Below, piece by piece: positions 1 to 21,409 of a stretch of DNA of 21,409 nucleotides. The position numbers and the translations under genes were made by a program. Every line of letters starts with the position of its first letter. The first letter of the stretch is position 1. Origin of the DNA: a virus. The stretch covers positions 1 to 21,409 of IMG/VR virus record IMGVR_UViG_3300031825_000077; one strand, given 5' to 3'. The notes beneath the pieces were generated by a model. The model was not told the DNA's origin. It saw only the letters and a list, made by a program, of their open reading frames with translations, and made no database searches.

Positions 1-11
1 AAAGAATACTT

Positions 12-719
12 TCACCTGTACACTGCCCCGTATCTACGGCAAGGGTTTTGCCCCTTGATGAGCTTAAGCAGCGTGGCATACGCAGTTTGATAAGTACGAT
101 CCTTTTCCAGTACCGCAGCGATATCAACCTCGTTTTTCACATCCTCCCAGGCGAACTTGAACCGACGCGAGCACATTTCCGTGAATGAGTAATTCTCTTC
201 GTCGTTATGAAAAGGCAGGGTATCCGAAGAAGCGGAAACCATGACGGAACCCTCGTAATCGTATGTCCACTGATCTCCGTTTTCAGAAGACGATGGAACT
301 TGAAAGAATCCAACCTTTTTAGTACTTGTCGGCTCCCAATAGAACCAAAGAGGATCGCCATATTGCGTGGCATAGTCGTAGTACGTAATTTGCAGACCTT
401 CAAGACCGCCTGCATATTCGTAAATCTGCCGATTATCCGCAGCTCTGTAGAAATGCGGATACCCGTAAAAGCGGGTGAAGTCCGCCGCCAGAGCATACGT
501 TCTCTGCTCAGTGACGAAGGTTACTGAGCCAGTAGTCTTTCTCTCGGAAGGGATAAGACGCTCGGCAATCAACTTCACGAGTTCATCCTGAATCGCCACT
601 ACAGCGAGATTCAGCGATGCGTTGTGCTGCGTATCCGACAGGGTCATGACTAAATCGGTATCCCCCCTGATAATGGCGTTCTTACGCAGAATTCTGTTGA
701 TTGCCTCGAGCAATGTCAT
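12..719 (-). CDS. Putative head-tail adaptor protein, 235 aa
   Basis: I do not recognise a named family by sequence alone. The position, two genes downstream of the major capsid gene in a phage head module, is where adaptor or connector proteins are usually encoded, and the length fits. The N-terminus is helical and polar (MTLLEAINRILRKN), the middle is rich in aromatic residues (FYGYPHFYRA, WFYWEP) and the C-terminal third is helical, which resembles gp6/adaptor-type proteins that dock on the portal. The ATG at 719 overlaps the stop of the upstream 97-aa gene by 4 nt, so the two are translationally coupled. The adaptor role is inference from position; coding status is well supported by length and tight packing. 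Confidence 0.7.
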   Translation of the reverse strand: MTLLEAINRILRKNAIIRGDTDLVMTLSDTQHNASLNLAVVAIQDELVKLIAERLIPSERKTTGSVTFVTEQRTYALAADFTRFYGYPHFYRAADNRQIYEYAGGLEGLQITYYDYATQYGDPLWFYWEPTSTKKVGFFQVPSSSENGDQWTYDYEGSVMVSASSDTLPFHNDEENYSFTEMCSRRFKFAWEDVKNEVDIAAVLEKDRTYQTAYATLLKLIKGQNPCRRYGAVYR

Positions 720-1009
720 ACCATCTCCACGGTCCCGAACTTAGCCCTTAGCGCATCCAGTAGAAGATGCTGCATACCCTGCCTGTTCTGCTGAGAGCCG
801 AGCATCGTCCCGGTTATGTTGGTCTTGAATGTGAAGCTATACTCGTTGCCGTCGATCCAGACGGATACGGAGATTTCGTTGCTTCTTTTTCGTGGGGCTT
901 TGGGTTGCTGCGGTAGCTTGATTTCAGTTGTGGAGACAGCCTCTTGAATATCAGTCTTGCGCCCCGCCTTTGCTTCGTACCGCAGCCTTGCCTTATCGAA
1001 CTCGGACAT
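716..1009 (-). CDS. Hypothetical phage protein, 97 aa
   Basis: Small basic protein. The N-terminal half (about residues 1-45) is charged and proline/lysine-rich, and the C-terminal half reads like a compact beta-rich domain (ISVSVWIDGNEYSFTFKT) followed by a short helix. I do not recognise the family. It lies between the capsid terminator and the adaptor-like gene and overlaps the latter by 4 nt. Because an intrinsic terminator (1021-1047) sits immediately upstream, expression of this gene and the next must depend on terminator read-through or on a promoter I could not identify. Confidence 0.65.
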   Translation of the reverse strand: MSEFDKARLRYEAKAGRKTDIQEAVSTTEIKLPQQPKAPRKRSNEISVSVWIDGNEYSFTFKTNITGTMLGSQQNRQGMQHLLLDALRAKFGTVEMV

Positions 1010-1020
1010 AAAGCCCCATG

Positions 1021-1047
1021 AAAAAGGGGCTGACCGAAGCCAGCCCC
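1021..1047 (-). terminator. Intrinsic terminator after the capsid gene
   Basis: On the minus strand a 7-bp GC-rich stem (GGGGCTG with CAGCCCC) extends by a G-U and a C-G pair to close a TTCG tetraloop and is followed directly by five T residues. It lies 16 bp downstream of the capsid stop codon. This is a classical rho-independent terminator. Partial termination here would let capsid protein be made in excess over downstream head-completion proteins. Confidence 0.85.
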
Positions 1048-1062
1048 AGGTTTAACTACAGA

Positions 1063-2151
1063 TCAGAGCTTGCTTGCGCCGCTGCGGATTTTCCCGATCC
1101 AGTTTCCGTTGAGAATCTCGCCGATCCACCACGATTTCCAAGCCAGCGAGCCGACTTCGTTGTACGGATCGGCCGCACCCGAAGAACCCGGCTTGTGGTA
1201 AATCACTTCCACCGCGGGCGGATTTTTCGGGTTGTACATCTCGTAGGCATTGGTCGCGTGCGTATTACCAAGCCCCACCGAGCCGACCGCTTCCTTGCCG
1301 TAGATATACGTGCTGTAAACGTCATTGAGGACGCTGGACGCACCACGCAGACCGGTCGCCGTGGTAGTACCTGCGGACGTAGAGACCGGGATAATCTCCG
1401 TCGAGCACCAGCGTACACCACCAGCAGCGCCGAACTCGAACGGCAGTGTCTCTGTATAGCCACCGTACGTCTCAACCGGAATGAACACGCCAGCACCAAG
1501 GCCGCGTATGTCCTCTTCCACGTCCACATGCGCGATGCCGTAGAAGCTAGAACGAACCGGGGAGGTGCCGATGTTGGTCGAACCATAGGCATCGCTGGTG
1601 AACTTCATGGCGCTATTGCGGTTGAGCTGGTTCACCATGTACTTAATGTCATTCAGCGTTATTGCCGACGTAACATTGGTATCTGCCGTCCCACCACCGA
1701 CAGCGCCGTTTGCATAGCGCACCTGCGTCGCGCCGCTGTAAATGGTCTCCATCAGCACGTTCAGCGATTCGCCCGCATTCGCTCCAAGCGTGTCCAGGAA
1801 CTTTGCGGCACGCATGTTCATCTGCAGGAGGTCGATTTCTTCAGACAGGGAGATTGCATTGCCCTTCTTCAGAATCGTCGCCGTAACCGTGCTAATGGTC
1901 GGAAGGACCGTACTACGGGTGGGGAAGGTCGTTGCGCCCGTCAACTCGCCGAGAGTATCGGTCGCAACCGCCAGATTGTCGATGCGCTCCCATTTAACGG
2001 CAGCCGTCGAGCCGTTCTTTTCGAGCGTCCCGGCCAGCGTGCCGTTATAGAAAGGAAGCTTCTTACGAGCCGCTGAAAGCAGGCCCTTCATCAACTGGAA
2101 GTTGACGCCAAGAGCGACGTTAGATGCAGTGCTAGAAACGAGGTAAGCCAT
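1063..2151 (-). CDS. Major capsid protein, N4-gp56 family, 362 aa
   Basis: Forms the icosahedral head shell. The protein starts MAYLVSSTASNVALG and ends with the family-typical tail: a VEVIYHKPGSSGAADPYNEV stretch, then a WKSWW segment and a final INGNWI-like segment (here ILNGNWIGKI). That C-terminal signature, the small-residue-rich mid region and the 360-residue length fit the N4-gp56 major capsid family. The ATG is preceded by AAGGA 9 nt upstream. Scaffold is directly upstream and a strong terminator lies directly downstream, the normal arrangement for a capsid gene expressed at high level. The long open frame on the opposite strand is a shadow. Confidence 0.93.
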   Translation of the reverse strand: MAYLVSSTASNVALGVNFQLMKGLLSAARKKLPFYNGTLAGTLEKNGSTAAVKWERIDNLAVATDTLGELTGATTFPTRSTVLPTISTVTATILKKGNAISLSEEIDLLQMNMRAAKFLDTLGANAGESLNVLMETIYSGATQVRYANGAVGGGTADTNVTSAITLNDIKYMVNQLNRNSAMKFTSDAYGSTNIGTSPVRSSFYGIAHVDVEEDIRGLGAGVFIPVETYGGYTETLPFEFGAAGGVRWCSTEIIPVSTSAGTTTATGLRGASSVLNDVYSTYIYGKEAVGSVGLGNTHATNAYEMYNPKNPPAVEVIYHKPGSSGAADPYNEVGSLAWKSWWIGEILNGNWIGKIRSGASKL

Positions 2152-2185
2152 TATTATTTTTCCTTATGAGGCTACCGCAAAACTT

Positions 2186-2875
2186 TTAGAGCGTGCCGCG
2201 TCCTATGTAGGATTGCCATTCCTTGTCGAAAGCCGCGCCGGTCTTACCCGCAAAGCGGTCTTCTTCTGGATTGGTCTGTTTTGTGGTGGCCGATGATTGT
2301 TGTGCTTGTTTTAGGGCCTTCTGATTCTCGGCAAGCTGCGGGTCTGCACGGACAGAAAACTTCTTCTGTAGCTGCTCGCCCATCGCCTTCGTCGCCGCAT
2401 TCCACGCCTTCGGGTTTTGATGGCGCTTTTGGTAGATCGCAGCAAACTTCGGGTCGGAACGAACCTGCTTCGCCAAAGCAAACTCGATCAAGTCCGCATC
2501 GGCTTCGGGTAGACCAACAACCTTATTGAGATCAGAGACCAGCGTTTTTACTTCTTCAGCTTCGCGCCGGTTGATTTCCGAGACCGCTAATTGCCGCTGG
2601 AAAGCCTCCATGCTCGCGAGCTTCTTCTGAATTTCTCCGGATTGCGCCGCTTGCCACGTCTTGAATCCGTTAGGGTCAAGAACGGGGTCAGGTACAGCAG
2701 GCAGGGTTTCCTGCGCCGTTTGTTGCGGCTGCTGCTGGGTCTGCTGCGGCTGGAACGACTGCGCCTCCGCTTCTACGTTGAACTCGCTGTAAACCTGCTC
2801 CAGCGTGTTTTCCGTCTGCGGGGCTTCGGTGCTAGCGGGTTGCTCAGTGCTAACCTGCTGCGCTTGCTCTGCCAT
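2186..2875 (-). CDS. Capsid scaffolding protein, 229 aa
   Basis: Predicted internal scaffold for procapsid assembly. The composition is that of phage scaffolds: the first about 65 residues are disordered and rich in Gln, Glu, Thr and Pro (QPQQTQQQPQQT), followed by a charged helical, probably coiled-coil, segment (about 75-135) and a basic C-terminal helix region (about 155-200). No catalytic motif is visible, so there is no evidence for a fused protease. It sits directly upstream of the capsid gene, as scaffolds do. Start ATG at 2875 has GGAG 5 nt upstream. A terminator lies between this gene and the preceding 67-aa gene. Confidence 0.85.
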   Translation of the reverse strand: MAEQAQQVSTEQPASTEAPQTENTLEQVYSEFNVEAEAQSFQPQQTQQQPQQTAQETLPAVPDPVLDPNGFKTWQAAQSGEIQKKLASMEAFQRQLAVSEINRREAEEVKTLVSDLNKVVGLPEADADLIEFALAKQVRSDPKFAAIYQKRHQNPKAWNAATKAMGEQLQKKFSVRADPQLAENQKALKQAQQSSATTKQTNPEEDRFAGKTGAAFDKEWQSYIGRGTL

Positions 2876-2887
2876 GTGAACTCCAAT

Positions 2888-2909
2888 AAAAAAGGCCCCG
2901 AAGGGCCTT
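2888..2909 (-). terminator. Intrinsic terminator with TTCG loop
   Basis: Minus strand: 7-bp stem (AAGGCCC with GGGCCTT) closing a TTCG tetraloop, then a run of T. It follows the 67-aa gene by about 15 bp and precedes the scaffold start by only 12 bp. Scaffold and capsid need read-through from upstream or a promoter hidden in the upstream coding sequence. Confidence 0.85.
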
Positions 2910-2924
2910 GTGGTTGAGACTGTG

Positions 2925-3128
2925 TTACTTACCGGTTAGCAACTTAAAGAGAAGGTCGAAACCATCCTGCCTACCGGATTGATACTTAAGTTCTTCGATA
3001 ACAGCGTTGTTTGCTTCCATTGAACCAGCAGGGCGGTAAGCTGGAACCACGGGACGGCTTTTGTGCATTGCGTCCATGATTTCCTGAAACTCTCGCGTTT
3101 CCCGCAACTGCTTTAACAGTTCTTTCAA
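2925..3128 (-). CDS. Hypothetical protein downstream of portal, 67 aa
   Basis: Small charged protein (MKELLKQLRETREFQEIM...). The N-terminal 25 residues are predicted helical, and the middle contains VVPAYRPAGSMEANNAVIEE. Phages with this head module often carry a similarly sized unknown gene between portal and scaffold, but I cannot name it. The apparent start is TTG at 3128, which overlaps the portal stop in a TTGA junction, implying coupled translation. A terminator follows at once. Confidence 0.65.
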   Translation of the reverse strand: MKELLKQLRETREFQEIMDAMHKSRPVVPAYRPAGSMEANNAVIEELKYQSGRQDGFDLLFKLLTGK

Positions 3129-5155
3129 GCGGTCTCCTTGCTAGCAGCGGCTTCCTGCATCGCCTGTTCCGGTATCTGTTGGGCTTCAATGAGTGTCTTA
3201 ACGGTCTGCGCTTCGATAAGGTCAATCTCGGCTGCCGCTTTCTTTGCAGCTAAGACTTGCTCGCGATTCTGACCTGCCATGTCAGATTGCATCTCTACCG
3301 AACTCTTACGGGCGTCTACTTGCAACTCCGCAACCGCAAGCTTCTCCTTGGATTGCAACTCTGCGGCGGCGATCTTCTCTCTCGACTGAATCTCAGCGGC
3401 CTTCACCTGAGCACCTGATTTAAGCTGCTGGTTCTCGGTCTGTAGCTGTTGCATCGCCTGCTGCATCTGCTGCATTTGCTGTTGGACCTCAGGCGGTATC
3501 TGCGGGCCTTCGTCCACCTGAACGTACTGTTCTGGATTCTTAAGACCCGCATCGCGGTAGGTCTGGAGCATGATCTCCGTCGTTTTGAGCTTCGGCGCGA
3601 ACAGCGGACTTCCGGAGAAAAACGCAGTAGCCGATCCCACTCGCTGAGTCCTCTGTTCTTCACCCAAAAGACCGCGAGAGCCGACGACATCGAAGTGCGC
3701 GTTAGCCTGAATGTCGCTGTTCTTCGCCCGGATGAAGTCTGGCGTAGACATTTCGGAGTTGTAGAACGTGTACTCCGTCATGTTCTTCCGATTAAGCTCG
3801 TGCTGCATGTATAGCCAAGGTCTTAAACCGCCATCCTCCAACATGCCTACAAACCCAACCGTGCGAACCTCTGCCCCTTGTTGTGTCTTGTTAACCTCAG
3901 TAGCTGTCTGCCGATCGGAGTTCACAACCCCGGTACGCAGAGAAGAAACGCCGGTTCCCTCCTGCATCTGGCGCAGGCCCATTTGCAGCCCTTCCAGCGC
4001 CCAACGAGGATCGCCTATATCCAGAGCCTGCATACCCTTGCCCATGCTCTTGGTCGGCGTCTTGGCTCCAGGAGAAAGGTCGGGACCATCGTTCATCACG
4101 TAATCCGGGTCATTACCGTCATACTCAATCGGCGGCTCTACCTTAAGATTCACAGCGTCCACGAAGCGATTAGCGATAATCGTCGTGATCTTCTGCATCG
4201 GGGACTGCTTAATGATAGGCGACGTATAGTATGGGTCTCGAATGTCCTGCCTCTCATAGCCTCCGTATATTATGGAAGGGTAAGGAAGCTCATTCGCCGC
4301 CATGAAAACAATGACGCCGTTCGCAAGAATCGCAAACGAATTCGGGAAATACATATCCCCGTCGTCTCGATCTATGTTCAGGTCGCCGTACCACTTCGTC
4401 AGCTTTACGTCTTTGGTCTGAACCTCCCCGTTTTTATGTTCTTCGTCGGGGATCTTGGAAAGGCGGTTAGACATCCATCCGTCACCCTTCGCAATCCTTT
4501 TCAACTTCCACAGCGGCATGTACTCGTTGATAAGCATCGACCCCGTGTAAAACAGGTTCGTGCCGATCACCGAAGGGGAGGGATCGGGGTAGGCATTCCA
4601 CATCGAAACTGGTTGCCATACCGGGGCAGAGACTTGCTTAAGCTTCTGCCCGTCATACACCATCATCTCTTTAGCAAACTTCGCTTCTGCCACAAACCCG
4701 CCGTGGTGCAGGGCTTCTTTAACCGAAAGTCTAAAGCGCCCCTTAAATCCGAAGTCCTTATGTTGCTGCACCATGAGAGAGCGTAAGAGACCATCTGCAA
4801 TCCGCTGCTTCTGCTCGGGCACTCTGTTCTGCCCAACATCCTTATTCAGCTCAACGTGAGGCTCAAACCAGTTTTCATCCGGGAACGTAATACGCATTAC
4901 GTCGTCGGTGATGATCTCCGAGGCCTTTGATAGCTCACCTAGCTCAAAGGCAGACTGCCACGCGGCCTCAACGGACATTCCCGGCATGACTTTCTGCAGC
5001 GGGTTCATGGCGATTTGGCGGTCGACCTCTTTCCACTTGGATTCGTGGTTTTTGCGGAATTGCGATTTCTCGCGGGTGGAAAGCTCGTCGTTGATGTACG
5101 TCTCGAGCTTCTTCCAGTCCGCAGAAACGATCCGCCTGTTTTTAGGTTCAGCCAA
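3125..5155 (-). CDS. Portal protein, 676 aa
   Basis: Ring-forming protein at the unique vertex through which DNA is packaged and ejected. Support: position directly after the large terminase (2-bp gap) and before scaffold and capsid, size (about 75 kDa, typical of podovirus-type portals), and an N-terminal region with an early helical segment and a tryptophan/aromatic-rich middle (WQPVSMWNAYPDPSPS). From about residue 555 to the end the protein is a long Gln/Glu/Ala-rich coiled coil, starting at PPEVQQQMQQMQQAM, which fits the helical barrel extension of large portals. The apparent start is TTG at 5155; no in-frame ATG occurs until about residue 49, so a non-ATG start is likely. Confidence 0.9.
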   Translation of the reverse strand: MAEPKNRRIVSADWKKLETYINDELSTREKSQFRKNHESKWKEVDRQIAMNPLQKVMPGMSVEAAWQSAFELGELSKASEIITDDVMRITFPDENWFEPHVELNKDVGQNRVPEQKQRIADGLLRSLMVQQHKDFGFKGRFRLSVKEALHHGGFVAEAKFAKEMMVYDGQKLKQVSAPVWQPVSMWNAYPDPSPSVIGTNLFYTGSMLINEYMPLWKLKRIAKGDGWMSNRLSKIPDEEHKNGEVQTKDVKLTKWYGDLNIDRDDGDMYFPNSFAILANGVIVFMAANELPYPSIIYGGYERQDIRDPYYTSPIIKQSPMQKITTIIANRFVDAVNLKVEPPIEYDGNDPDYVMNDGPDLSPGAKTPTKSMGKGMQALDIGDPRWALEGLQMGLRQMQEGTGVSSLRTGVVNSDRQTATEVNKTQQGAEVRTVGFVGMLEDGGLRPWLYMQHELNRKNMTEYTFYNSEMSTPDFIRAKNSDIQANAHFDVVGSRGLLGEEQRTQRVGSATAFFSGSPLFAPKLKTTEIMLQTYRDAGLKNPEQYVQVDEGPQIPPEVQQQMQQMQQAMQQLQTENQQLKSGAQVKAAEIQSREKIAAAELQSKEKLAVAELQVDARKSSVEMQSDMAGQNREQVLAAKKAAAEIDLIEAQTVKTLIEAQQIPEQAMQEAAASKETA

Positions 5156-5157
5156 AT

Positions 5158-6603
5158 TTAGCCCCAGTTCGTAGCGCCTCTAGCAGCGTGGCGTTTTGGT
5201 CTTTTTATTGTTTCGGTGCGTGCGTGCCGAAGCATCATGAAGGCGTAGCGAGAAGCAGAAAGCACGTCATCGCGCAGCTTTACGATCTTTCCTTTCTTGT
5301 CGCGGTGATACATGCGCTTCTCTTCCAGCCAAACCCGGCATGTCTTAAACACCTTCCATTTTCCGGTTTCCATGCGCTCCACCATTTCCATGATCGGAGC
5401 CTCAACGGAATTCCCGCCTTCCCCCTCTTGTTTTCCCATCGGCGGGGGGTTTGTAGCTTTGGCAGGAAGCAGGTTTAGCTTCTCTTTCTTATACGAGTTA
5501 ATCAGCGCCTCACCAGTGCCCTTTTCGGAATTCAAGCCATCATGGGGCCACGCCACAGGCACCCATTCCCCCCAACCCCTAACGACAGAGGAGTGAACGG
5601 CTGGGAGCGCCTTCGATTCGCGGTAATCTGCAATGACATAGACCGTGTCGGTATCTCTATCCCAAGCGAGTTTTGCTGCGCCGAAAGGATGGTCCCACCC
5701 GAAGTCGATCCCGCTAATTTGCGGCCAATGCCTCGGAATCGGAAATGGCTCAACCTCGATCTGTTCATCTGGTGTGGCGAAAATGACGCCAGCCCCCATA
5801 AGCGGGACGCCCTTAGACCGCATCTCTCGTTCATGCGCCGGAACAGACGCAAGCTTTTCTGCTCGCACTTCAGGTGTCATATGCGGGGCGTCGTCCCAAG
5901 TCGCAGTTATTACGGCCTGCCCCGGCTTCAAGTCGTTCAGGAACGCTACAACAACCTCCGTCATCCCCTCCTCCGGTGTGAACGTAAGGATGATGGTCGT
6001 ATCCTTCTTGGCGAAGGTCGCGCGAACAACTTGAGACCAAATATCTAACGGGGGTTCTTCATCCAGCCATACGCCATCACGAGCGCGGCCCATGAACTTC
6101 TTGAAACCCTGCTCATAGGCTTTAAATTGAAGCTTCGACCAGCCGCCAGATACGTGCTTAACCAGTACTGTATCTATGGCATTAGGAACACCGGGCTTAT
6201 TGGTCTTCTTCCCGATGCAGTCAACGGGAATCGAGCCGCTACCAAATAAAGCAGGGTTCTCCGGGTCTCCCAGAAGTTCCGCCTGCATAATGTCACGCGT
6301 CGTATCGTTCGTGTTCGACGCGGCCATCCAATCGACCGGACGGAAGAACCTCTTACCCTTCCAATCCTTCGGATACTGCCCCGTAAGGTGCATCGCAACT
6401 TCCATCGCGGCGCACATCGTCTTTCCGATCTTGTTTGCAGCGATAATTGCCCGCTGCGCTGCCAGCCTACCCGGGGTTAGATGCCCCTCTGCGTAATGAA
6501 ATTTCTCCTGGTAGGGATACGGCTTGTAATAGTCGAGTTTGTGAAACGTCCGCCGCCTCTCCATCAATAGGACTAGGCGGGCTAATTCCTCTTGGGGATT
6601 CAA
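5158..6603 (-). CDS. terL: Terminase large subunit, 481 aa
   Basis: ATP-driven DNA packaging motor with headful or site-specific nuclease. The ATPase domain has Walker A AANKIGKT (residues 55-62) and Walker B with catalytic Glu in VWLDEEPP (about 178-185). The C-terminal RNase-H-like nuclease has its first acidic motif in GIDFGWDHP (about 298-306) and a late acidic DDVLSASRY near residue 445, matching the expected metal-binding aspartates. Length is normal. The start TTG at 6603 has TGGAGA a few nt upstream; the next in-frame Met is residue 14, just before the conserved PYQEKFH, so the exact start is uncertain. The portal gene follows after 2 bp. Unusually, the small-subunit candidate is 4.3 kb upstream. 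Confidence 0.95.
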   Translation of the reverse strand: MNPQEELARLVLLMERRRTFHKLDYYKPYPYQEKFHYAEGHLTPGRLAAQRAIIAANKIGKTMCAAMEVAMHLTGQYPKDWKGKRFFRPVDWMAASNTNDTTRDIMQAELLGDPENPALFGSGSIPVDCIGKKTNKPGVPNAIDTVLVKHVSGGWSKLQFKAYEQGFKKFMGRARDGVWLDEEPPLDIWSQVVRATFAKKDTTIILTFTPEEGMTEVVVAFLNDLKPGQAVITATWDDAPHMTPEVRAEKLASVPAHEREMRSKGVPLMGAGVIFATPDEQIEVEPFPIPRHWPQISGIDFGWDHPFGAAKLAWDRDTDTVYVIADYRESKALPAVHSSVVRGWGEWVPVAWPHDGLNSEKGTGEALINSYKKEKLNLLPAKATNPPPMGKQEGEGGNSVEAPIMEMVERMETGKWKVFKTCRVWLEEKRMYHRDKKGKIVKLRDDVLSASRYAFMMLRHARTETIKRPKRHAARGATNWG

Positions 6604-6736
6604 TTTTCTCCAGGTCTAAAATTACGGGGCGTAACATGGGGTCAAGGTCGGGAAACATCACAATCAAGGCGTAGAGCTTCCCTATTGCATCCTGCAGCGG
6701 TGTCCTTTCAGCTTTCCGTGCATCGTGAGCGGGCAA
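6467..6736 (-). CDS. Possible small protein overlapping terL, 89 aa
   Basis: A frame starting TTG at 6736 with a good GGGGGA ribosome site 6 nt upstream. It overlaps the methyltransferase end by 55 nt and the start of terL by 137 nt. The first half reads like a protein (LQDAIGKLYALIVMFPDLDP, then RPVILDLEKIE), filling the otherwise empty 78 bp between the methyltransferase and terL. The second half lies inside terL and looks like out-of-frame translation. It may be a genuine coupling peptide, a decayed gene or a false positive. Confidence 0.35.
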   Translation of the reverse strand: MPAHDARKAERTPLQDAIGKLYALIVMFPDLDPMLRPVILDLEKIESPRGISPPSPIDGEAADVSQTRLLQAVSLPGEISLRRGASNPG

Positions 6737-7215
6737 ATCAGTTCCCCCTTAGCTTCTCCACGGTTGTCGCAGATGATCGTTTTCGCTTTGACCTTGTAAG
6801 TCTCTAGCGGGTAGTGCCAGCCCCACGACAAAAGAGAGATAACGAGGTCCGCCTCTATGTCCTGAGTGCCGATGTCGTACCAGCGATCTACAGTCACGCC
6901 GTTAGATTTCAAAAACTCCGTGGCCACTTCACGAGAACTAAACGGCTTCATCTCCGACTCAAACCCGCCCCGCCAGTCCTCTTTAGGACCGTCACCGTCC
7001 AGTAGATATAACTTCGCCTCGGGATATTTCTGCTTTAAGAGAATGTCTATCCCGGCCATGCCGCAGCCGATGTCCAGTATCGAATCCACAGACTCCGGTA
7101 GATATGGTTCGATCTGCTCGAAATCCGACTTCAGGCTTTCTATGTACTCTTCAGCAGTTTTCGTGTGAGTGCGGTGTAAGAACACCCACTCAAGAACCTC
7201 GGGCGATAGCTTCAA
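6682..7215 (-). CDS. Class I SAM-dependent methyltransferase, 177 aa
   Basis: Small Rossmann-fold methyltransferase. Motif I is ILDIGCGMAGID (residues 46-57) and the acidic end of strand 2 is LYLLDGDG (about 69-76), which bind S-adenosylmethionine; WYDIGTQDIEADLVISL carries the motif II/IV region. No DPPY or NPPY motif is present, so a DNA N6-adenine target is not indicated. It is the last enzyme of the glycan-type cassette, overlapping the upstream glycosyltransferase by 26 nt, so methylation of a sugar or lipid carrier is a reasonable inference. Start TTG at 7215 is needed to keep the N-terminus; no ATG precedes motif I. Confidence 0.85.
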   Translation of the reverse strand: MKLSPEVLEWVFLHRTHTKTAEEYIESLKSDFEQIEPYLPESVDSILDIGCGMAGIDILLKQKYPEAKLYLLDGDGPKEDWRGGFESEMKPFSSREVATEFLKSNGVTVDRWYDIGTQDIEADLVISLLSWGWHYPLETYKVKAKTIICDNRGEAKGELICPLTMHGKLKGHRCRMQ

Positions 7216-7840
7216 GAATGATGTCCGCGTGCTGTTGTTGGATATGCGACGTGTCGGATAAAAGCTTCATCGCCTTCCCCCCGGCTCCGCCCACCCTAGC
7301 TCTTTGGTAAGTCTCGTCGGACTCAGACTTCCCATACTTGAAGTGCAAATGCTCTACTTCCACGTCTTTAACCTGGATCAGCCGGCCGCACTTTTTGGCA
7401 ACCTCAGAAACCCAGCCATCAGGCCCGAAGTGAGCAAAAATGTCAGGCCATGGACCGATAAGCTTTACCCACTTCATCGACATAACGAAGTGATTGCAAT
7501 TCTGCTTCGCGTGGTCCGTGCCGTAGACGATCGCTAAATCATCCTTCGGCATCGCGTTTAGGAGCTTTTCGTCCCAGTCCTGAGTCCGAAACTCGATGTC
7601 GTCCGACCCGATCATGAAGTAGGGCGTCTCGACCTTGGCAATCATGGACAGGAGAGCTTTAGAACTCCCCACCGAAGGTCCTATCGTGACCCCTTCGTAT
7701 TCATCCCTCTTCGGATCGTCCTCGTCTACATAGGCCATCAGGTGAAACGGATTGCGAGCGGTCCGTAGAGCGGAATCAACGGCATTCCTAAACCGCTTCG
7801 GCCGTCCTCTTGTCGCAATGAGTAGCGATAGCCTCAACAA
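7190..7840 (-). CDS. GT-A fold (family 2-like) glycosyltransferase, 216 aa
   Basis: N-terminus LSLLIATRGRP is the nucleotide-binding opening strand of family 2-like glycosyltransferases. VDEDDP (38-43) and GSDDIEF (78-84) supply the acidic residues for nucleotide-sugar and metal binding; the second is the DXD-equivalent. The C-terminal GPDGWVSEVAKKCG and EVEHLHFKYGK segments resemble the acceptor-binding helix and the late histidine region of such enzymes. At 216 residues it is short, as phage versions often are, with no membrane anchor. The apparent start is TTG at 7840, followed by a second TTG, with GGAG just upstream. It overlaps both neighbours, indicating a compact co-translated cassette. 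Confidence 0.85.
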   Translation of the reverse strand: MLRLSLLIATRGRPKRFRNAVDSALRTARNPFHLMAYVDEDDPKRDEYEGVTIGPSVGSSKALLSMIAKVETPYFMIGSDDIEFRTQDWDEKLLNAMPKDDLAIVYGTDHAKQNCNHFVMSMKWVKLIGPWPDIFAHFGPDGWVSEVAKKCGRLIQVKDVEVEHLHFKYGKSESDETYQRARVGGAGGKAMKLLSDTSHIQQQHADIILEAIARGS

Positions 7841-8540
7841 CCATCTCCGGAGTTATGCGCTCCAACGCCTGTCTACAGTGAAGGCATGGTGTTATGGAGC
7901 CGCAGAAATAAGACGCTTTGCACAGGTTGGTATGCGAGTCGTAGCCCAAGGTGTTAGGCCCCACCAACCCGCCCCAGACCACGACAGCGGGTTTCCCTAA
8001 AGCCGCCGCCGCGTGGTGCATACCGCCATCAGTGCCTACAAATAAAAAAGCCCTCGCTAGGAGGGCACAGGCGTCGCGGAATGACCGCGTTTCAAGCTGT
8101 CGGACGTTTCTTAATCGCCGTCCTTTACCTTGAATCCACCTAATCTCTGGTAAAGCATCGACAACCTTTTGCCAGTTGTCGAAGCCCCAATCCTTGTTTC
8201 CACCGAACGAGCCTTTGGTGTTTGGCTCGATGTAAACGAAATCAGACTCAGACCATCGAAGCTCACCTGGAGAAAAGTAAATCTCTCCGGGTTCAGCCTT
8301 AAACGGCTTCCACGCCATCCGTTCTTTAGTGGTCTTGGAATAGTCGATATACGGTCTGTTACCTTTGACCGCCTTGACCCACACACCGTCAGGAATGATC
8401 TTTTTCGAGATGCGCGGATTGTTCTCGAAAACCTCTGACCATTTAATCTCTGCCCCGTCTCCGACCATCACCCGCTTTCCAGTTACCGTATTGGCCTTGC
8501 GGGCAAGAGCGGTAACGAGGATCTCGTCACCGAAACCCAA
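7788..8540 (-). CDS. GT-B fold (family 9/heptosyltransferase-like) glycosyltransferase, 250 aa
   Basis: The protein begins directly with the conserved GFGDEIL motif (family 9 enzymes usually have GxGDxxL after a short strand) and carries the C-terminal GTDGGMHHAAAALGKP motif (about 169-184), the nucleotide-sugar site of heptosyltransferase-like enzymes, followed by VVVWGG. YIEPNTKGSFGGNKDW fits the central inter-domain loop. Length is about 100 residues short of bacterial heptosyltransferases but matches compact phage relatives. An in-frame stop lies 9 nt upstream of the TTG at 8540, so the TTG (with CGGAG 9 nt before it) is effectively forced if the GFGDE motif is translated. Confidence 0.88.
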   Translation of the reverse strand: MGFGDEILVTALARKANTVTGKRVMVGDGAEIKWSEVFENNPRISKKIIPDGVWVKAVKGNRPYIDYSKTTKERMAWKPFKAEPGEIYFSPGELRWSESDFVYIEPNTKGSFGGNKDWGFDNWQKVVDALPEIRWIQGKGRRLRNVRQLETRSFRDACALLARAFLFVGTDGGMHHAAAALGKPAVVVWGGLVGPNTLGYDSHTNLCKASYFCGSITPCLHCRQALERITPEMVVEAIATHCDKRTAEAV

Positions 8541-9096
8541 CGACGCTTACTCCGTATTTTTCTTCGATTAGCGGAAGCATCTTGTTTTCGGCTTTCCAGT
8601 CATGCCCCGTTGTCCACTTACCCTTATTCGCTTTGTAATAATCCAGCTTGTCGGGGTCCAGGAGGTTATCGAAGCCGACCAGCCTGATTTCTTCGGCCTT
8701 CAAAAACTCGCAGGCACACAGAATTGCAAACATCCCGAGGGAGAAGTTTCTAACCTCCTCCCGCCCGAGCGTCTTGAAAATCGCATTCCAGCGGAGAAAT
8801 AAATCAAGCGGGATTATTAATTGAGCTTTTGCCCGATTTCTAAAATTAGCATCAGTTGTCGGATTCCATGCTCCCTTCTTTGGCTGCCCGAAGTACTGCT
8901 TCGGCACTTTCTTGTAATCAAGCATCACCGGCAGCGTTTCCGTCGAGCTGCACATGTAATCGACTCGGGTGCCGTAATCCTCTTTGTTCTGCCAGCTCGG
9001 GTCTTTGAGCCTTATGACGATGGTTTCGTCTATCCTCGGACCCCAGCCCTTACCTAGCGGGCTTTGACCGTGCCCAATGACTGATACTGTCTCCAA
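8527..9096 (-). CDS. Sialyltransferase-like (GT29/GT42 style) glycosyltransferase, about 189 aa
   Basis: The N-terminal motif VSVIGHGQSPLGKGWGPRID resembles the CMP-sugar-binding opening of GT29/GT42-like proteins (VxGNGPSL...), and a downstream FSLGMFAILCACEF / IRLVGFDNL pair resembles the second sialyl motif, where a Ser-Gly helix is followed by a strand ending in GFD. These similarities are from memory of the family, so the donor sugar is uncertain. I chose TTG at 9096, with GAGGG 10 nt upstream, because it places the motif at residue 5 and shortens the overlap with the preceding gene; GTG at 9126 would add 10 residues. The 3' end overlaps the next gene by 14 nt. Confidence 0.7.
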   Translation of the reverse strand: METVSVIGHGQSPLGKGWGPRIDETIVIRLKDPSWQNKEDYGTRVDYMCSSTETLPVMLDYKKVPKQYFGQPKKGAWNPTTDANFRNRAKAQLIIPLDLFLRWNAIFKTLGREEVRNFSLGMFAILCACEFLKAEEIRLVGFDNLLDPDKLDYYKANKGKWTTGHDWKAENKMLPLIEEKYGVSVVGFR

Positions 9097-10097
9097 CTGT
9101 CGAATACCCTCACCGAGCCGTACCACGACGTTTTACCCGGGGTCGCCCTGCAGACCCACTTCCACGGCAGGATTGAACGTCGATCCGGCAATGCCGTCAT
9201 CGGGTCCGCAATAATCACGTCCACAGGGACTCCAAGAGCGCCCGCAAAGTGCGCGACAGAGGTCGAGACGGTAACGACCTTAGAGAGATTCGACAGCAGC
9301 CCTAAAACGCCTTCTATGTCGTTTCTGAGGTCGAGTCCTGCGGGTGCGTTGTGCTCCTCATCCCATTCAGGATCGTATTGCAGGCTGATTCCATCCGACA
9401 AAGCGCGTCGTATAAGCGGTTCACAGCCTTGAGCTCCTCGCCAAGAGACTCCGATATGGCCTCTAAAACCTGCAAATCGCTTAATTTGCTCATCACTCGC
9501 TTTCAAAAACGGCATACCGGGAAAATGCTTCAGCGAACGCCTAAAGTTCCTCGCTAAATCCCCTATCGGCCACCACGCCTCCGCGCCTTCCGGGACTCCC
9601 TGGACCTTCCTTTTACTGCCTTCGATTTCTGCGGGTCTCGTTTCGACTCCGAAGGAGCGCTCGAAGATGGTTTGCAGTCTCGGGTCACATTCGACAATGA
9701 CCGAATCAACCAATCTCTGAACGTCTGGAATGCACGACGCAAAGAAAACTTCATCCCCTATCCCCTGATCGCCAATGATCCAAAGCTTTTTAACCCGAGA
9801 CCCATTCCAACGAGGAATCGGAAACGGATTACTGTCTTTCCAGTGCCACAAGCCTAAGTGATAATCCGACTGAAACTCCCAACCAGACCAGTCCGAATAA
9901 TCACCCAAGTAAAAACGGGCCTGACAACGCGCCCAGCGTGCGTTAGGCGGCTCGTCAGGGACTAGATGCAACTCACCCCTACGATATGCCTTCTCAAGCT
10001 TCCTGATCGCGTTCTGGCGCTTTAGAGGGCTGGCACCAGTGGCTTTCTCAAGGACCAAGCGGATGGAGCGGAAATCAATCTCTCGGGCTAGCTGCAA
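9054..10097 (-). CDS. Family 9-like glycosyltransferase with N-terminal extension, 347 aa
   Basis: Two parts are visible. Residues about 1-80 form a helical region (VLEKATGASPLKRQNAIRK, then a RARFYLGDY-like segment), similar to a repeat preceding the catalytic part in TPR-type glycosyltransferases. The catalytic part begins at WIIGDQGIGDEVFFASCIPD (about 106-125), the family 9 GxGDE motif, and includes IGVSWRG and VTVSTSVAHFAGALGVPVDV (about 273-292), the nucleotide-sugar motif. It is probably the first enzyme of the cassette. Start TTG at 10097 has GGGAG 8 nt upstream and overlaps the end of the 56-aa gene. Confidence 0.85.
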   Translation of the reverse strand: MQLAREIDFRSIRLVLEKATGASPLKRQNAIRKLEKAYRRGELHLVPDEPPNARWARCQARFYLGDYSDWSGWEFQSDYHLGLWHWKDSNPFPIPRWNGSRVKKLWIIGDQGIGDEVFFASCIPDVQRLVDSVIVECDPRLQTIFERSFGVETRPAEIEGSKRKVQGVPEGAEAWWPIGDLARNFRRSLKHFPGMPFLKASDEQIKRFAGFRGHIGVSWRGAQGCEPLIRRALSDGISLQYDPEWDEEHNAPAGLDLRNDIEGVLGLLSNLSKVVTVSTSVAHFAGALGVPVDVIIADPMTALPDRRSILPWKWVCRATPGKTSWYGSVRVFDSWRQYQSLGTVKAR

Positions 10098-10258
10098 CGA
10101 TCAAACTCCCACGACTTGCGCCAGAAAAACACACGAAAGTACAAACCACGCGGCAACACCCAAGAACTCCACCGAAACTCAAGATTGAATATCGGGCCGC
10201 GCTCGTTAAACGCGAAGGCAAAGAGCGTTCGGCTAACCCTTATGTACGACTCGCCCAC
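10088..10258 (-). CDS. Small aromatic/basic hypothetical protein, 56 aa
   Basis: Read directly from the sequence: GTG at 10258, stop TAG at 10088-10090. The product is unusually rich in Phe, Trp and Arg (NLEFRWSSWVLPRG, then YFRVFFWRKSWEF), with alternating hydrophobic and charged residues as in a small beta-sheet protein. An in-frame stop lies 4 codons upstream of the GTG, and GAGGA precedes it by 6-7 nt, so the start is well defined. It overlaps the end of the 144-aa gene by 26 nt and the start of the glycosyltransferase by 10 nt, filling an otherwise empty gap. I do not recognise the family. Confidence 0.65.
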   Translation of the reverse strand: MGESYIRVSRTLFAFAFNERGPIFNLEFRWSSWVLPRGLYFRVFFWRKSWEFDRCS

Positions 10259-10667
10259 GCCGCTTCCTCATGTAGTCCCGCATGTAGGCGTTGTATGCTT
10301 CTCTGCTGCGCCTGTTTAGCGTGCGGGAAATTGAAGCTGAATCTTTTTCACCGGAAACCGCTCGCCCACCTTTTGGCACAGCTTTATGAACTCGCGCTCC
10401 CGATAATTCGGCCTGCCGATTTTCAGCACAACCTCTGGGTTGTCGCGCTTCAGGATTTTCCCGCGAAAGACTCGCCGCGTTGCCGTGATTACTTTCGTCG
10501 GACTTACATACTTCGTGGCCCGACGTGCATTCTGGGCCAGCAGCGTTTCTATTACCTTCTCGATCATTATTAATCGCCTCCGTGTTAATCGCAGATTTGT
10601 TAATCGCACGAAACCTTTCGCACCGCATGCGAGGGTCATGCTTGTTACCGCAAGCGCGACATTTCAT
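10233..10667 (-). CDS. Small zinc-ribbon-like phage protein with basic C-terminal tail, 144 aa
   Basis: The N-terminus MKCRACGNKHDPRMRC holds a CxxC...C knuckle, and the C-terminus ends NAYMRDYMRKRRGRV. This combination (MKC.C..., short AIN/VNT-type repeats, then YMRxYMRxRR) is familiar to me from small hypothetical proteins of betaproteobacterial phages, usually shorter. The repeat part here is AINKSAINTEAIN. Between the two recognisable ends lie about 85 low-complexity residues that coincide with a second gene in another frame (10316-10567), so this linker may be long because a gene lies within it. There is no strong ribosome site before the ATG at 10667. Confidence 0.6.
   Translation of the reverse strand: MKCRACGNKHDPRMRCERFRAINKSAINTEAINNDREGNRNAAGPECTSGHEVCKSDESNHGNAASLSRENPEARQPRGCAENRQAELSGARVHKAVPKGGRAVSGEKDSASISRTLNRRSREAYNAYMRDYMRKRRGRVVHKG
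10316..10567 (-). CDS. Conserved-looking phage protein nested in another frame, 83 aa
   Basis: Reads MIEKVIETLLAQNARRATKY..., then VVLKIGRPNYREREFIKLCQ and FPVKKIQLQFP. The GRPNYREREFIK...PFPVKK pattern is one I know from short hypothetical proteins in phages and prophages. The ATG at 10567 has a perfect GGAGG 9 nt upstream. The whole gene lies inside the 144-aa gene, which is read in another frame on the same strand. Both frames have protein-like features, so this seems a genuine nested gene rather than a shadow. Longer in-frame starts up to 10639 exist but lack such a ribosome site. Confidence 0.7.
   Translation of the reverse strand: MIEKVIETLLAQNARRATKYVSPTKVITATRRVFRGKILKRDNPEVVLKIGRPNYREREFIKLCQKVGERFPVKKIQLQFPAR
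10570..10607 (-). repeat. Three direct repeats of 8 bp at 15-bp period
   Basis: Plus-strand TTAATCGC occurs at 10570-10577, 10585-10592 and 10600-10607, exactly 15 bp apart. In the 144-aa protein these encode the five-residue repeat AINxx three times. The block lies immediately upstream of the nested 83-aa gene; the copy next to it flanks its GGAGG ribosome site. Confidence 0.75.
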
Positions 10668-12313: not shown

Positions 12314-12343
12314 ATCAAATAGTTGTTGACACGCATCGGTCAA
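12314..12343 (-). promoter_or_regulatory. Candidate divergent minus-strand promoter
   Basis: Minus strand -35 TTGACC (complement of 12338-12343), 18-bp spacer, -10 TTTGAT (complement of 12314-12319). Its -35 is the mirror half of the palindrome whose other half supplies the -35 of the plus-strand promoter. It would drive the small genes and perhaps the whole late arm leftward. Confidence 0.45.
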
Positions 12344-12346
12344 CAA
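12323..12346. promoter_or_regulatory. Palindromic operator between divergent promoters
   Basis: Perfect 8-bp inverted repeat TTGTTGAC, 8-bp spacer, GTCAACAA. The two halves contain the -35 boxes of divergent promoters, so a bound dimer would block both. The KorA/TrfB-like protein at the end of the plus-strand operon is the obvious candidate regulator (inference). Confidence 0.65.
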
Positions 12347-12354
12347 GTCATACT
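12326..12354 (+). promoter_or_regulatory. Plus-strand promoter of the small-gene cassette
   Basis: Consensus -35 TTGACA (12326-12331), 17-bp spacer, -10 CATACT (12349-12354). Predicted start near 12361, giving a leader of about 35 nt before the ATG at 12396. Confidence 0.7.
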
Positions 12355-12395
12355 GCACTCGTCATCACTTGATGACACCCACTGAGGAGCACGAA

Positions 12396-12602
12396 ATGGA
12401 CCTCCAACAAATTCGCAGCAAACTGGACCTCGCCGGCGTCACTTATCGCGTCTGGAAGGATGTTCGCGTCTATGTCACCAGCACGCCGAACGGCGGCAGG
12501 GGTGACTACGGATATCTTGCCGCCGGAGATGACGGCAGCACTGGGACCTGCCAGGGAATCAGCAAACGCAAAGGCGAAATCTCCGCGATTCTGCGCGGGT
12601 AG
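12396..12602 (+). CDS. Small hypothetical protein, 68 aa
   Basis: First gene of a plus-strand cassette. Reads MDLQQIRSKLDLAGVTYRVW, then KDVRVYVTSTPNGGRGDYGY. Pattern: a helix, then several short strands and a glycine-rich loop, as in small single-domain plasmid or phage proteins. I chose ATG at 12396 because GAGGAGC lies about 7 nt upstream; a start 27 nt earlier lacks this. Function unknown. Confidence 0.65.
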   Translation: MDLQQIRSKLDLAGVTYRVWKDVRVYVTSTPNGGRGDYGYLAAGDDGSTGTCQGISKRKGEISAILRG

Positions 12603-12611
12603 GAGGAGACC

Positions 12612-12794
12612 ATGATTTACGCCTTCCCTCTCACTATTCGCCCGCTTGGTTACACCGCATGGGCAGTCGCGGACTCTGTTGACAAGGCAGCAGACCTCTA
12701 CCAGCAGGCCGTCAATCGCGGCCTTTCCCGCGTCAGGATCATCGACGCGGACGGAATCGACATCACGGATTCCGTGATCCATGAGGATGTATGA
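12612..12794 (+). CDS. Small hypothetical protein, 60 aa
   Basis: Reads MIYAFPLTIRPLGYTAWAVA, then DSVDKAADLYQQAVNRGLS and a strand VRIIDADGIDI. A compact alpha/beta small protein with an acidic C-terminus. GGAGG lies just upstream of the ATG. It starts 9 nt after the preceding stop and its own stop overlaps the next candidate start (ATGA). The related ribosome-site context GAGACC-N-ATG recurs before several genes of this cassette, as though they arose by duplication or were assembled with a common leader. Confidence 0.65.
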   Translation: MIYAFPLTIRPLGYTAWAVADSVDKAADLYQQAVNRGLSRVRIIDADGIDITDSVIHEDV

Positions 12795-12994
12795 CCGACC
12801 ACCACAACTGCAACCGGCTCCGCACAGCGTATCTCGCCGTGGCGGCCGCAAACGTAATGGAGACCACCATGACCTACCGCTACTACCAGGACGAGCACAA
12901 GGCTCTTGCCGCCATCACCATCGCCAAAGCTCAGGGCAAGCAGGCCTACATGATCCACTACCGCGCGGGCACGATCGAAGTCCGCATCTGGTAG
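12791..12994 (+). CDS. Small hypothetical protein, 41 or 67 aa
   Basis: The C-terminal 41 residues (MTYRYYQDEHKALAAITIAK, then MIHYRAGTIEVRIW) look like a small alpha/beta protein. Two starts are possible: ATG at 12791, overlapping the preceding stop (ATGA) with GAGG 5 nt upstream, or ATG at 12869 with GGAG 6 nt upstream in the same GAGACCACC context seen before neighbouring genes. I favour 12869 on residue composition but give the longer extent. Function unknown. Confidence 0.5.
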   Translation: MTDHHNCNRLRTAYLAVAAANVMETTMTYRYYQDEHKALAAITIAKAQGKQAYMIHYRAGTIEVRIW

Positions 12995-13051
12995 ACCATG
13001 ACCCTCGCCGCGCGCAACTGGCTCGGCTACTACATCACCCAGGAGACCATC

Positions 13052-13240
13052 ATGAGCACAACTCGCGCAGCAAACAGCGACAACAGCGACGCCAGCCAAA
13101 TCGCCACCCACCCCTCAGCCTCCGACGAGGAGCGCATCGCCGCAGCTCACATCATGGCTGCATACGACCTGCGCACCGTGTGTGAGCGATCCAACATCGC
13201 TACCGTGCAGACAGCTGGGCAACGGCTGGGTCTGTGGTGA
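13052..13240 (+). CDS. Small hypothetical protein, 62 aa
   Basis: ATG at 13052 is preceded by AGGAGACCATC, the same leader type as the upstream genes. The first about 30 residues are disordered (MSTTRAANSDNSDASQIA), followed by a helical, charged segment (DEERIAAAHIMAAYDLRTVC). An upstream in-frame ATG at 12998 has no ribosome site. The 3' end nearly abuts the helix-turn-helix gene. Function unknown. Confidence 0.55.
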   Translation: MSTTRAANSDNSDASQIATHPSASDEERIAAAHIMAAYDLRTVCERSNIATVQTAGQRLGLW

Positions 13241-13242
13241 GC

Positions 13243-13443
13243 ATGACCCTCGCCGAATTCCGCCGCCTCGCCGATGCGCACAAACTCACAGGGCGCACCC
13301 GCGAGGCGCTGCAGCTCCTCTACGTGGATGGCCTAACAGGCTCGCAGGCGTCACGTAAGGTCGGTATCGACCGTGCAGCCGTCAGCCGTGCGAGAAAGCG
13401 CCTGGAGCGGCCTCTGTGCCCTTCCTGTGGGCGTCCTGAGTGA
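13243..13443 (+). CDS. KorA/TrfB-like helix-turn-helix regulator, 66 aa
   Basis: Reads MTLAEFRRLADAHKLTGRTR, then EALQLLYVDGLTGSQASRKVG and IDRAAVSRARKRL. This is the compact HTH pattern of the TrfB/KorA family from plasmids, with LVDGLSQAEAARRVGVSRQAV as the usual form. A short CPSCG sequence closes the C-terminus, which the plasmid proteins lack. As the last gene of the plus-strand cassette it is a likely autorepressor acting at the 12323-12346 palindrome (inference). The ATG at 13243 is one of three clustered starts (GTG at 13234 and 13237). Confidence 0.75.
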   Translation: MTLAEFRRLADAHKLTGRTREALQLLYVDGLTGSQASRKVGIDRAAVSRARKRLERPLCPSCGRPE

Positions 13444-13458
13444 GACCTATAGCGCGCC

Positions 13459-13677
13459 TCTGGTGAAAGTCCTACGCCATCCCCTTATGAGTGGTTTGAC
13501 CTGACGAATGCAGGCTAACGTAAGGAGCGGAGATAGGAGGACTTTCGCCAGAAGCGGCGTACAGCAACATTTAGTTATCGATTTGTTGCTCTCGATAGTT
13601 TCTGCCTATCGTCACAGGCTTAGGCCGCCCCAGCCCCCAGACCTGTAGGTCTGTCGCAAGGGCTTAAGCAGCTGCTT
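13459..13677 (+). ncRNA. Candidate structured noncoding RNA
   Basis: No gene is convincing here, but the sequence is dense in stems. P1 is a 15-bp pairing of 13459-13473 with 13538-13552 (14 Watson-Crick pairs plus one G-U). Its inner domain holds CGC/GCG (13475-13477 with 13527-13529), CCTTA/TAAGG (13483-13487 with 13521-13525) and an apical stem with CCTG/CAGG (13500-13503 with 13511-13514) and loop ACGAATG. It is followed by hairpins AGCAACA/TGTTGCT (13563-13569 with 13584-13590), CGATAG/CTATCG (13593-13598 with 13606-13611), CAGACC/GGTCTG (13638-13653) and a 12-bp palindrome at 13666-13677. There is no U-tract, so it is not simply a terminator. Strand is assumed from read-through of the plus-strand cassette. 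Confidence 0.5.
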
Positions 13678-13877
13678 GGGCTCGGTATCGATTAGGTTAT
13701 CAGGGATGGCTAACGGCCATGACTCGCTGTGCCTTGCGGCGGTCTTACGGGGCTTTCCCTGTTTATCGCTTCCTCGTCGAGCAGACAATTCAGCGGCTCC
13801 GGGCGGCGCTCAGAGCGATCTGTTTTCTTCCCGGCGGCCCAGACCAAGGCCCACTACTTATGGCGGGGAGTGCCAAT
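13678..13877. other. 200-bp stretch without a recognised feature
   Basis: Several short open frames exist on both strands, but none has a ribosome site plus protein-like sequence. It may be the 3' part of the structured RNA region. Confidence 0.4.
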
Positions 13878-13909
13878 GAAAAAGCCCCGCACCATTTCTG
13901 GCCGGGGCT
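13878..13909 (-). terminator. Intrinsic terminator ending the early minus-strand operon
   Basis: Minus strand: 7-bp stem AGCCCCG with CGGGGCT, an inner CCA/TGG stem closing a GAAA tetraloop, then TTTTT. It lies about 120 bp downstream of the Q-position gene. In a lambda-like plan this is the tR' position, just downstream of a late promoter. Confidence 0.85.
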
Positions 13910-13953
13910 CTGATTTCCGGGCGCGTCTCGTCCTCCCACAAGGACGATGACGA

Positions 13954-14028: not shown

Positions 14029-14361
14029 TTATTCGCCCAACCACACATTTTTTTTACGAAGGGCGGTTTGTAGGTGAAGTCGGGCGTTATCGAGCACATG
14101 CTGGTAATTTCCCCTAGGAAAGCGATAGACGGCCCTCAGATATGCGTGGTGAATGGCACACTGCTCTATGGCCGGAAGGCTTTCTATGGCCGCGTTAGTG
14201 GCCTCTGCGGCCCACTTATCCAAGTTCTCCCAAGCCGTCCACCCCTCAGAGTCAAAGCTGGTGTAATTCTGCAATCCACCGCTGGCCCACTTGGGAAGGC
14301 CGTCAGGCTTCGCGCCTTGGTGCATCCAACTCACCCAATTACGCAGGTGGCACTCCACCAT
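14029..14361 (-). CDS. Possible Q-like antitermination/late regulator, at least 110 aa
   Basis: LRNWVSWMHQGAKPDGLP near the N-terminus resembles the NWGRWxxxG opening of small late-regulator proteins in betaproteobacterial phages. The second half (AIESLPAIEQCAIHHAYLR, then NYQHVLDNARLHLQTALRKK) resembles a sigma region-4-like helical domain as in antiterminator Q/ArpU-type proteins. It is the last gene of the early operon, followed by a terminator, exactly where lambda-like phages place Q. The true start is probably upstream: 16 more protein-like codons are open, and AGGAG precedes an ATA at 14407-14409. Family assignment is moderate. Confidence 0.55.
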   Translation of the reverse strand: MVECHLRNWVSWMHQGAKPDGLPKWASGGLQNYTSFDSEGWTAWENLDKWAAEATNAAIESLPAIEQCAIHHAYLRAVYRFPRGNYQHVLDNARLHLQTALRKKNVWLGE

Positions 14362-14423
14362 AGAGGCGGCAGCGCTGGCGATTTCTAACGGCTCTCTCAG
14401 GTTGGCTATGGCGGCTCTCCTGG

Positions 14424-20739: not shown

Positions 20740-21409
20740 ATGGAGAAGAATGGGAAAGCCGATGTGCTCATGGCATATAAAGGATTTGATGCCGAGTTCA
20801 AATGCCGCGACTTCCAATTTGAGGTTGGCAAGACGTATGAGCATGACGGCCCCGTTTCCATCTGCTCGTCAGGCTTCCATGCATGCGAAATGCCGTTTGA
20901 CGTGTGGTACTACTACGCTCCGCATTCCTCGCAGTTTGCCAGCGTGACTCTCAGAGATGTGAGCAAAGAGACGAGCGACGACAGCAAGCGCGTTGCAAAG
21001 AAGATCACGGTAGAGGAGAAGCTCTCGCTGTTCGGCTTCATCCGAGCGCAAGTGAAGTGGACGAGCGAGCTCGCCGAGAAAGAGGCTGCCACCACGGGCT
21101 ACGAGGCCCACGCTGCCACCACGGGCTACGAGGCCCACGCTGCCACCGCGGGCTACGAGGCCCACGCTGCCACCGCGGGCGACAGGGCCCACGCTGCCAC
21201 CACGGGCTACGAGGCCCACGCTGCCACCGCGGGCTACGAGGCCCACGCTGCCACCGCGGGCGACTGGGCCAACGCTGCCACCGCGGGCTACGAGGCCCAC
21301 GCTGCCACCGCGGGCGACAGGGCCCACGCTGCCACCGCGGGCGACAGGGCCCACGCTGCCACCGCGGGCGACAGGGCCCACGCTGCCACCACGGGCTACG
21401 AGGCCCACG
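20740..21409 (+). CDS. DUF7666-type protein with 9-residue repeats (3' end outside window)
   Basis: MEKNGKADVLMAYKGFDAEF, then KCRDFQFEVGKTYEHDGPVS and ICSSGFHACEMP make up the N-terminal domain known from phage DUF7666 proteins (Y-KGF...C..F.FEVGKTY...GFHAC). Helical residues up to 115 lead to a tandem array of a 9-residue unit (consensus AATAGYEAH) from residue 116 to the window edge. Function of the family is unknown to me. ATG at 20740 has AAGGAG 6 nt upstream; a start at residue 11 is less supported. It is the first gene of the PL-like operon. The long frame on the other strand across the repeats is a shadow. Confidence 0.88.
   Translation, partial: MEKNGKADVLMAYKGFDAEFKCRDFQFEVGKTYEHDGPVSICSSGFHACEMPFDVWYYYAPHSSQFASVTLRDVSKETSDDSKRVAKKITVEEKLSLFGFIRAQVKWTSELAEKEAATTGYEAHAATTGYEAHAATAGYEAHAATAGDRAHAATTGYEAHAATAGYEAHAATAGDWANAATAGYEAHAATAGDRAHAATAGDRAHAATAGDRAHAATTGYEAH
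21085..21408 (+). repeat. Tandem array: 12 copies of a 27-bp unit
   Basis: Twelve in-frame 27-bp units encode A-A-T-[TA]-G-[YD]-[ERW]-A-[HN]. Variation is confined to positions 4, 6, 7 and 9: position 6/7 is YE, DR or DW, position 9 is H in all but one unit (N). The array continues past the window edge. Units are almost identical in DNA, which suggests recent expansion or gene conversion. Confidence 0.92.

Follow-up and report, generated by a model that had tools for sequence, protein, structure and literature searches.

Several kinds of phage RNA place a hairpin at or near the end of an operon. Phage transcripts may carry 3' hairpins that are processed by RNase III, as in the lambda sib type, which lies after int, and the early RNA sites of T7, which lie between genes; these are long, imperfect hairpins with internal loops, located in the 3' untranslated region (3' UTR) of the operon and lacking a U-tract. 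In lambda, the 6S RNA or late leader corresponds to the pR'-tR' region on the far side of the Q locus, and in lambdoid phages the late promoter region is expected to travel with its antiterminator. Intrinsic terminators likewise put a hairpin at the operon end, made of a short GC-rich stem followed by a U-run. The put RNA of phage HK022 is an element of about 70 nt with two adjacent stem-loops near the early promoters (PMC9378689); it is cis-acting, has strong stems and needs no phage protein. Antitermination by put involves the zinc-binding domain of the RNA polymerase beta-prime subunit.

The window analysed here is the whole of virus record IMGVR_UViG_3300031825_000077 (21,409 bp). Its minus strand carries the late block of a tailed phage (major head protein, portal, large terminase) and an early operon (Cro-like protein, primase zinc finger, helicase). 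A repressor-like gene is divergent to the Cro-like gene, which makes a temperate lifestyle probable. The end of the early operon is separated from the start of the late operon by a short plus-strand operon (about 12369-13443), whose last gene, KorA-like (13234-13443, plus strand), encodes a 69-aa helix-turn-helix (HTH) protein that matches Sigma70 region 4 and KORA only weakly, with no score reaching the Pfam cut-off. The annotated circular podovirus MW202713.1 has the same arrangement, in which the Q locus is followed by a spacer, the small plus-strand operon and then the late genes.

The sole relative reaching the locus was IMGVR_UViG_3300031825_000171 (53,682 bp; L002 in the coordinates below). 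The first bases of this record recur at 43310, with positions 1-10373 duplicated as 43310-53682 (about 10.4 kb); the relative thus appears to be a circular genome of about 43.3 kb assembled past its end, though it is listed as linear. Several proteins are 91-97% identical between the two phages (portal 94%, KorA-like protein 91%). Differences in the KorA-like gene fall mostly in the third codon position (8/1/23 by position), indicating that 13234-13443 is a real plus-strand gene under purifying selection. The operon has a sigma-70-like promoter (TTGACA-17-CATACT, 12326-12354, plus strand), kept in the relative as TTGACA-17-TCTAAT. A palindrome, TTGTTGAC-8-GTCAACAA (12323-12346), overlies the -35 box and is a candidate operator for the KorA-like protein; one of its sides is degenerate in the relative. 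No plus-strand terminator-like site was found between 12200 and 14700.

A first-pass annotation had described 13444-13877, just behind the KorA-like gene, as one structured RNA with at least five independent stem-loops, among them a 15-bp long-range stem enclosing 64 nt. The long stem was borne out. It forms a hairpin domain at 13455-13556, assigned here to neither strand, and begins 11 nt past the stop codon of the HTH gene, as close behind that gene as had been proposed. The outer arms, CGCCTCTGGTGAAAGTCCT (13455-13473) and AGGACTTTCGCCAGAAGCG (13538-13556), are 19 nt long, 89% complementary and 64 nt apart; their 12-nt core, GGTGAAAGTCCT / AGGACTTTCGCC, contains one U.G pair when read on the plus strand. 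Within the inner loop of the domain there is a further hairpin, CCTG/CAGG (13500-13503 / 13511-13514). The domain with its immediate flanks (13453-13560, about 108 nt) folded at -48.9 kcal/mol on the plus strand (z -5.21) and at -52.0 kcal/mol on the minus strand (z -7.21), and on neither strand did any of 200 shuffles do as well. When the sequence was embedded in transcripts of 442, 646 and 901 nt, each pair of the outer stem had a probability of 0.75-1.0; in the larger transcripts the stem was near-certain on either strand, bar one A.C mismatch on the minus strand.

Taken simply as an inverted repeat, the stem is rare for its surroundings: when the 900-nt region was shuffled 60 times, a repeat scoring at least 40 arose once. 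Across the 21 kb such a score is not unique, since the repeat at 881-906/1005-1030 scores higher and 2 of 4 shuffles of the whole window reach 40; the credibility of the hairpin therefore comes from its conservation and not from the inverted-repeat score. The repeat at 881-906/1005-1030 is the strongest non-tandem inverted repeat of the window; it sits between the major head protein gene and the next gene and is identical in the relative. As for the statement that neither arm recurs in the window, the arm core GGTGAAAG / CTTTCGCC is indeed absent elsewhere, except for one CTTTCACC at position 9. Arm cores are present at several other places in the relative.

In the relative, the homologous domain (L002 4199-4297) directly follows the same KorA-like stop codon and also folds better than expected (plus strand z -4.1, matched by none of 200 shuffles; minus strand z -4.3). 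The two phages are identical in 17 of 18 alignment columns over each arm (columns 4-21 and 85-102). This 94% identity compares with about 80-84% in the adjoining coding DNA, which indicates that the arms are held more tightly than the neighbouring gene. The loop is far less conserved and measures 64 nt in the window and 58 nt in the relative. A possible hammerhead core, CTGACGA in the window loop, is absent from the relative and was rejected.

Pairing was compared over 19 pairs, of which 16 are invariant, one differs only by wobble, one is broken in the relative (C.A) and one is compensatory. The compensatory change falls in the inner hairpin, where CCUG/CAGG in the window is replaced by CCGG/CCGG in the relative (U-A to G-C), and with only two sequences a single such pair was matched in 258 of 500 shuffles. 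Overall, 97% of cells were paired, vs at most 53% with the partner slid. The outer stem shows no compensatory change between the two sequences, and 13 of its 15 pairs never vary; the support from covariation is suggestive only. Read on the plus strand, one U.G is common to both phages, and the relative has one more U.G and one C.A; on the minus strand the roles of wobble and mismatch are swapped.

We looked for the domain in other collections. Searches with Rfam (4227 families, release 15) gave no match at the gathering score (best E 3.7, attributable to chance), and ARAGORN detected no tRNA or tmRNA, in agreement with the earlier view that the element matches no tRNA, tmRNA, RNase P or recognisable riboswitch. 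When viral contigs were scanned with a pattern of the two arms, only the relative and one chance match in a tape-measure-like gene came up. No third phage reaching the locus was found by scans with the KorA-like, Q-position, helicase, small-terminase candidate, large terminase or portal proteins; one record (L095, portal 76%) stops about 3 kb short of it. No prophage was found in genome contigs with the KorA-like alignment or the portal, a covariance model run over 0.74 Mb of loci and 22 whole records recovered the two known copies only, and phage and plasmid collections yielded short chance matches only. No hairpin of this kind follows the KorA-like genes of L003-L005, which lead directly into a convergent gene. 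As far as these libraries go, the element is undescribed, yet of an ordinary kind.

The remainder of the interval behaved differently from its first 100 nt or so. The whole 434-nt stretch, read earlier as a multi-domain RNA, folded with a z of only -1.67 (5 of 100 shuffles as good). Once the long stem was left out, 13560-13877 gave z -1.26 on the plus strand and -1.85 on the minus strand, and the matching segment of the relative gave -0.43 and +0.73; the stem-loops other than the long stem are thus no better than those of shuffled sequence. The spacer of about 300 nt (13557-13856, neither strand) could not be aligned with the relative above the shuffled level: over the 290-nt middle segments, 115 columns are identical between the two phages, vs a shuffled mean of 105 and a maximum of 127. 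Beyond it, a second conserved block, CTTATGGCGNGGAGTGCCAATNAAAANGCCCC (13857-13888, no strand assigned), was found in viral contigs in the relative only and corresponds to the T-run and downstream flank of a minus-strand terminator. This terminator, GAGCCCCGGCCAGAAATGGTGCGGGGC followed by TTTTT (about 13879-13910, minus strand), is predicted from its fold as the intrinsic terminator of the early operon; its homologue in the relative (L002 4640-4626) has a different stem with the same T-run and flank in the same place. The description of the interval as free of a U-tract thus applies to the long hairpin and misses the terminator with which the interval ends. The 300 nt beyond the hairpin look like ordinary, fast-changing spacer closed by the terminator of the early operon. 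This plain-spacer result removes the larger claim and narrows the focus to 100 nt.

We tentatively favour, with rather less than even confidence, the view that the hairpin is a cis-acting 3'-UTR element of the KorA-like operon, either holding back exonucleases or serving as an RNase III cleavage site. The domain of about 100 nt would make up the 3' UTR of this operon, and the operon mRNA would run into it. As double-stranded RNA, the hairpin could then act in cis by limiting 3' exonucleases, by being cut by RNase III, or both, and would in this way determine where the regulator mRNA ends and how stable it is, at the point where the two operons converge. The fold, the place and the conservation of the hairpin were observed directly, and transcription, processing and effect are the steps we infer. 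The plus strand is preferred because the domain directly follows the stop codon in both phages, a conserved promoter precedes the operon, and a plus-strand terminator-like site is lacking. A structured element directly behind the KorA-like gene is supported by its fold and by conservation in one relative, with one compensatory change. A regulatory or exonuclease-resistant 3' structure, one of the options offered at first, is the leading guess.

Comparison with the RNase III-processed hairpins is consistent with this 3'-UTR reading. A long double-stranded stem (15 pairs plus inner stems) stands in the 3' UTR of a phage operon, 11 nt after the stop codon, and the hairpin is imperfect, with internal loops and without a U-tract. 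The likeness is one of general features, as the hairpin here lies near convergent operons and not after int or between T7 genes. It does not behave as an intrinsic terminator, since there is no U-run after 13556 on the plus strand or 13455 on the minus strand and the loop is 58-64 nt; the true terminator of the interval is the minus-strand one at its end. Against the 3'-UTR reading, only two sequences are available, with 13 of 15 outer-stem pairs invariant, and folding on the minus strand is at least as strong (z -7.2, -4.3). The wobbles are split, U.G at two pairs favouring plus and C.A in L002 favouring minus, and the near-invariant arms could equally mark a protein-binding site in DNA or RNA. 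If the hairpin does set the 3' end of this mRNA at the meeting point of early and late transcription, it would act as a small timing device that has been kept through exchange of the late antiterminator.

That exchange concerns the last gene of the early operon (14029-14409, minus strand), which stands where related phages have a Q-like late antiterminator. The window protein has no significant family match, so it is named Q by position only; in MW202713.1 the gene in this position carries the annotation antitermination protein. Identity between the Q-position proteins is 20% for the window and the relative (gene at L002 4828-5340), vs 47% for the relative and MW202713.1. The Q-position protein has been exchanged between two otherwise close phages, as has the adjoining spacer. 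The break lies just behind a common start, (I/M)ANLRE. An ATA start seems to be used in both phages (window 14407-14409, minus strand, probable after AGGAG; L002 about 5338-5341, minus strand), with a common AGGAG (TAACCAGGAGAGCCGCCATAGCCAACCT), and the proteins diverge a few residues after it; MW202713.1 uses GTG. Such a rare start codon could hold the antiterminator level low.

The exchange bears on a second explanation, which we regard as unlikely. A minus-strand reading would place the hairpin in the late leader, where it would serve in pausing, processing or RNA antitermination. The late promoter and Q-binding region would then lie within the variable 300 nt and be swapped along with Q, and the gene order shared with MW202713.1, the exchanged Q-position proteins and adjacent spacer, and the strong minus-strand folding in both phages would all fit. 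The hairpin lies beyond the Q locus, as the late leader of lambda does. However, 1.1 kb and opposing genes separate it from the first late gene, and the late promoter and tR' are only putative. No minus-strand promoter-like site was found in the spacer, Q is cut off from the spacer by a terminator, the late transcript would have to cross the opposing operon, and the position of the hairpin is linked to the KorA-like stop codon. An antitermination RNA of the put kind would look similar at this level, but put consists of two adjacent stem-loops of about 70 nt in total (PMC9378689), unlike the single long stem with inner loops found here at an operon end.

It is likewise doubtful that the element works as DNA, its arms being an inverted repeat to which a protein binds (the KorA-like regulator, or a replication or recombination protein), with the fold as a by-product. 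Conservation of the arms in sequence more than in pairing, without compensatory change in the outer stem and with mismatches in the readings of both strands, is what such a site would show. The arm spacing differs between the phages (64 vs 58 nt) by roughly half a turn of the helix, which argues against it, as do the compensatory change in the inner hairpin, the additional arm cores in the relative and the position of the hairpin downstream of the gene, while the operon promoter has its own palindrome.

That the hairpin has no function and is shared through descent seems improbable: the two phages are fairly close, as their proteins show, and the 21 kb contain other inverted repeats that score as high, but the spacer has diverged to random level while both arms remain 94% identical, above the coding DNA. 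We consider it very improbable that the domain represents a new class of cis-acting phage RNA, such as a protein-independent antitermination or processing element between the Q locus and the convergent regulator operon, kept through Q-cassette exchange. A packaging RNA, also suggested initially, is not supported, as Rfam includes the phi29-type family and gave no match, packaging is by a conventional large terminase subunit (Terminase_6N/6C), and the domain lies away from the head genes.

At the far end of the window, positions 21085-21409 form a 27-bp tandem array with 12 copies of GCTGCCACCGCGGGCTACGAGGCCCAC that reaches the end of the record and may be a coding repeat or an assembly stop.
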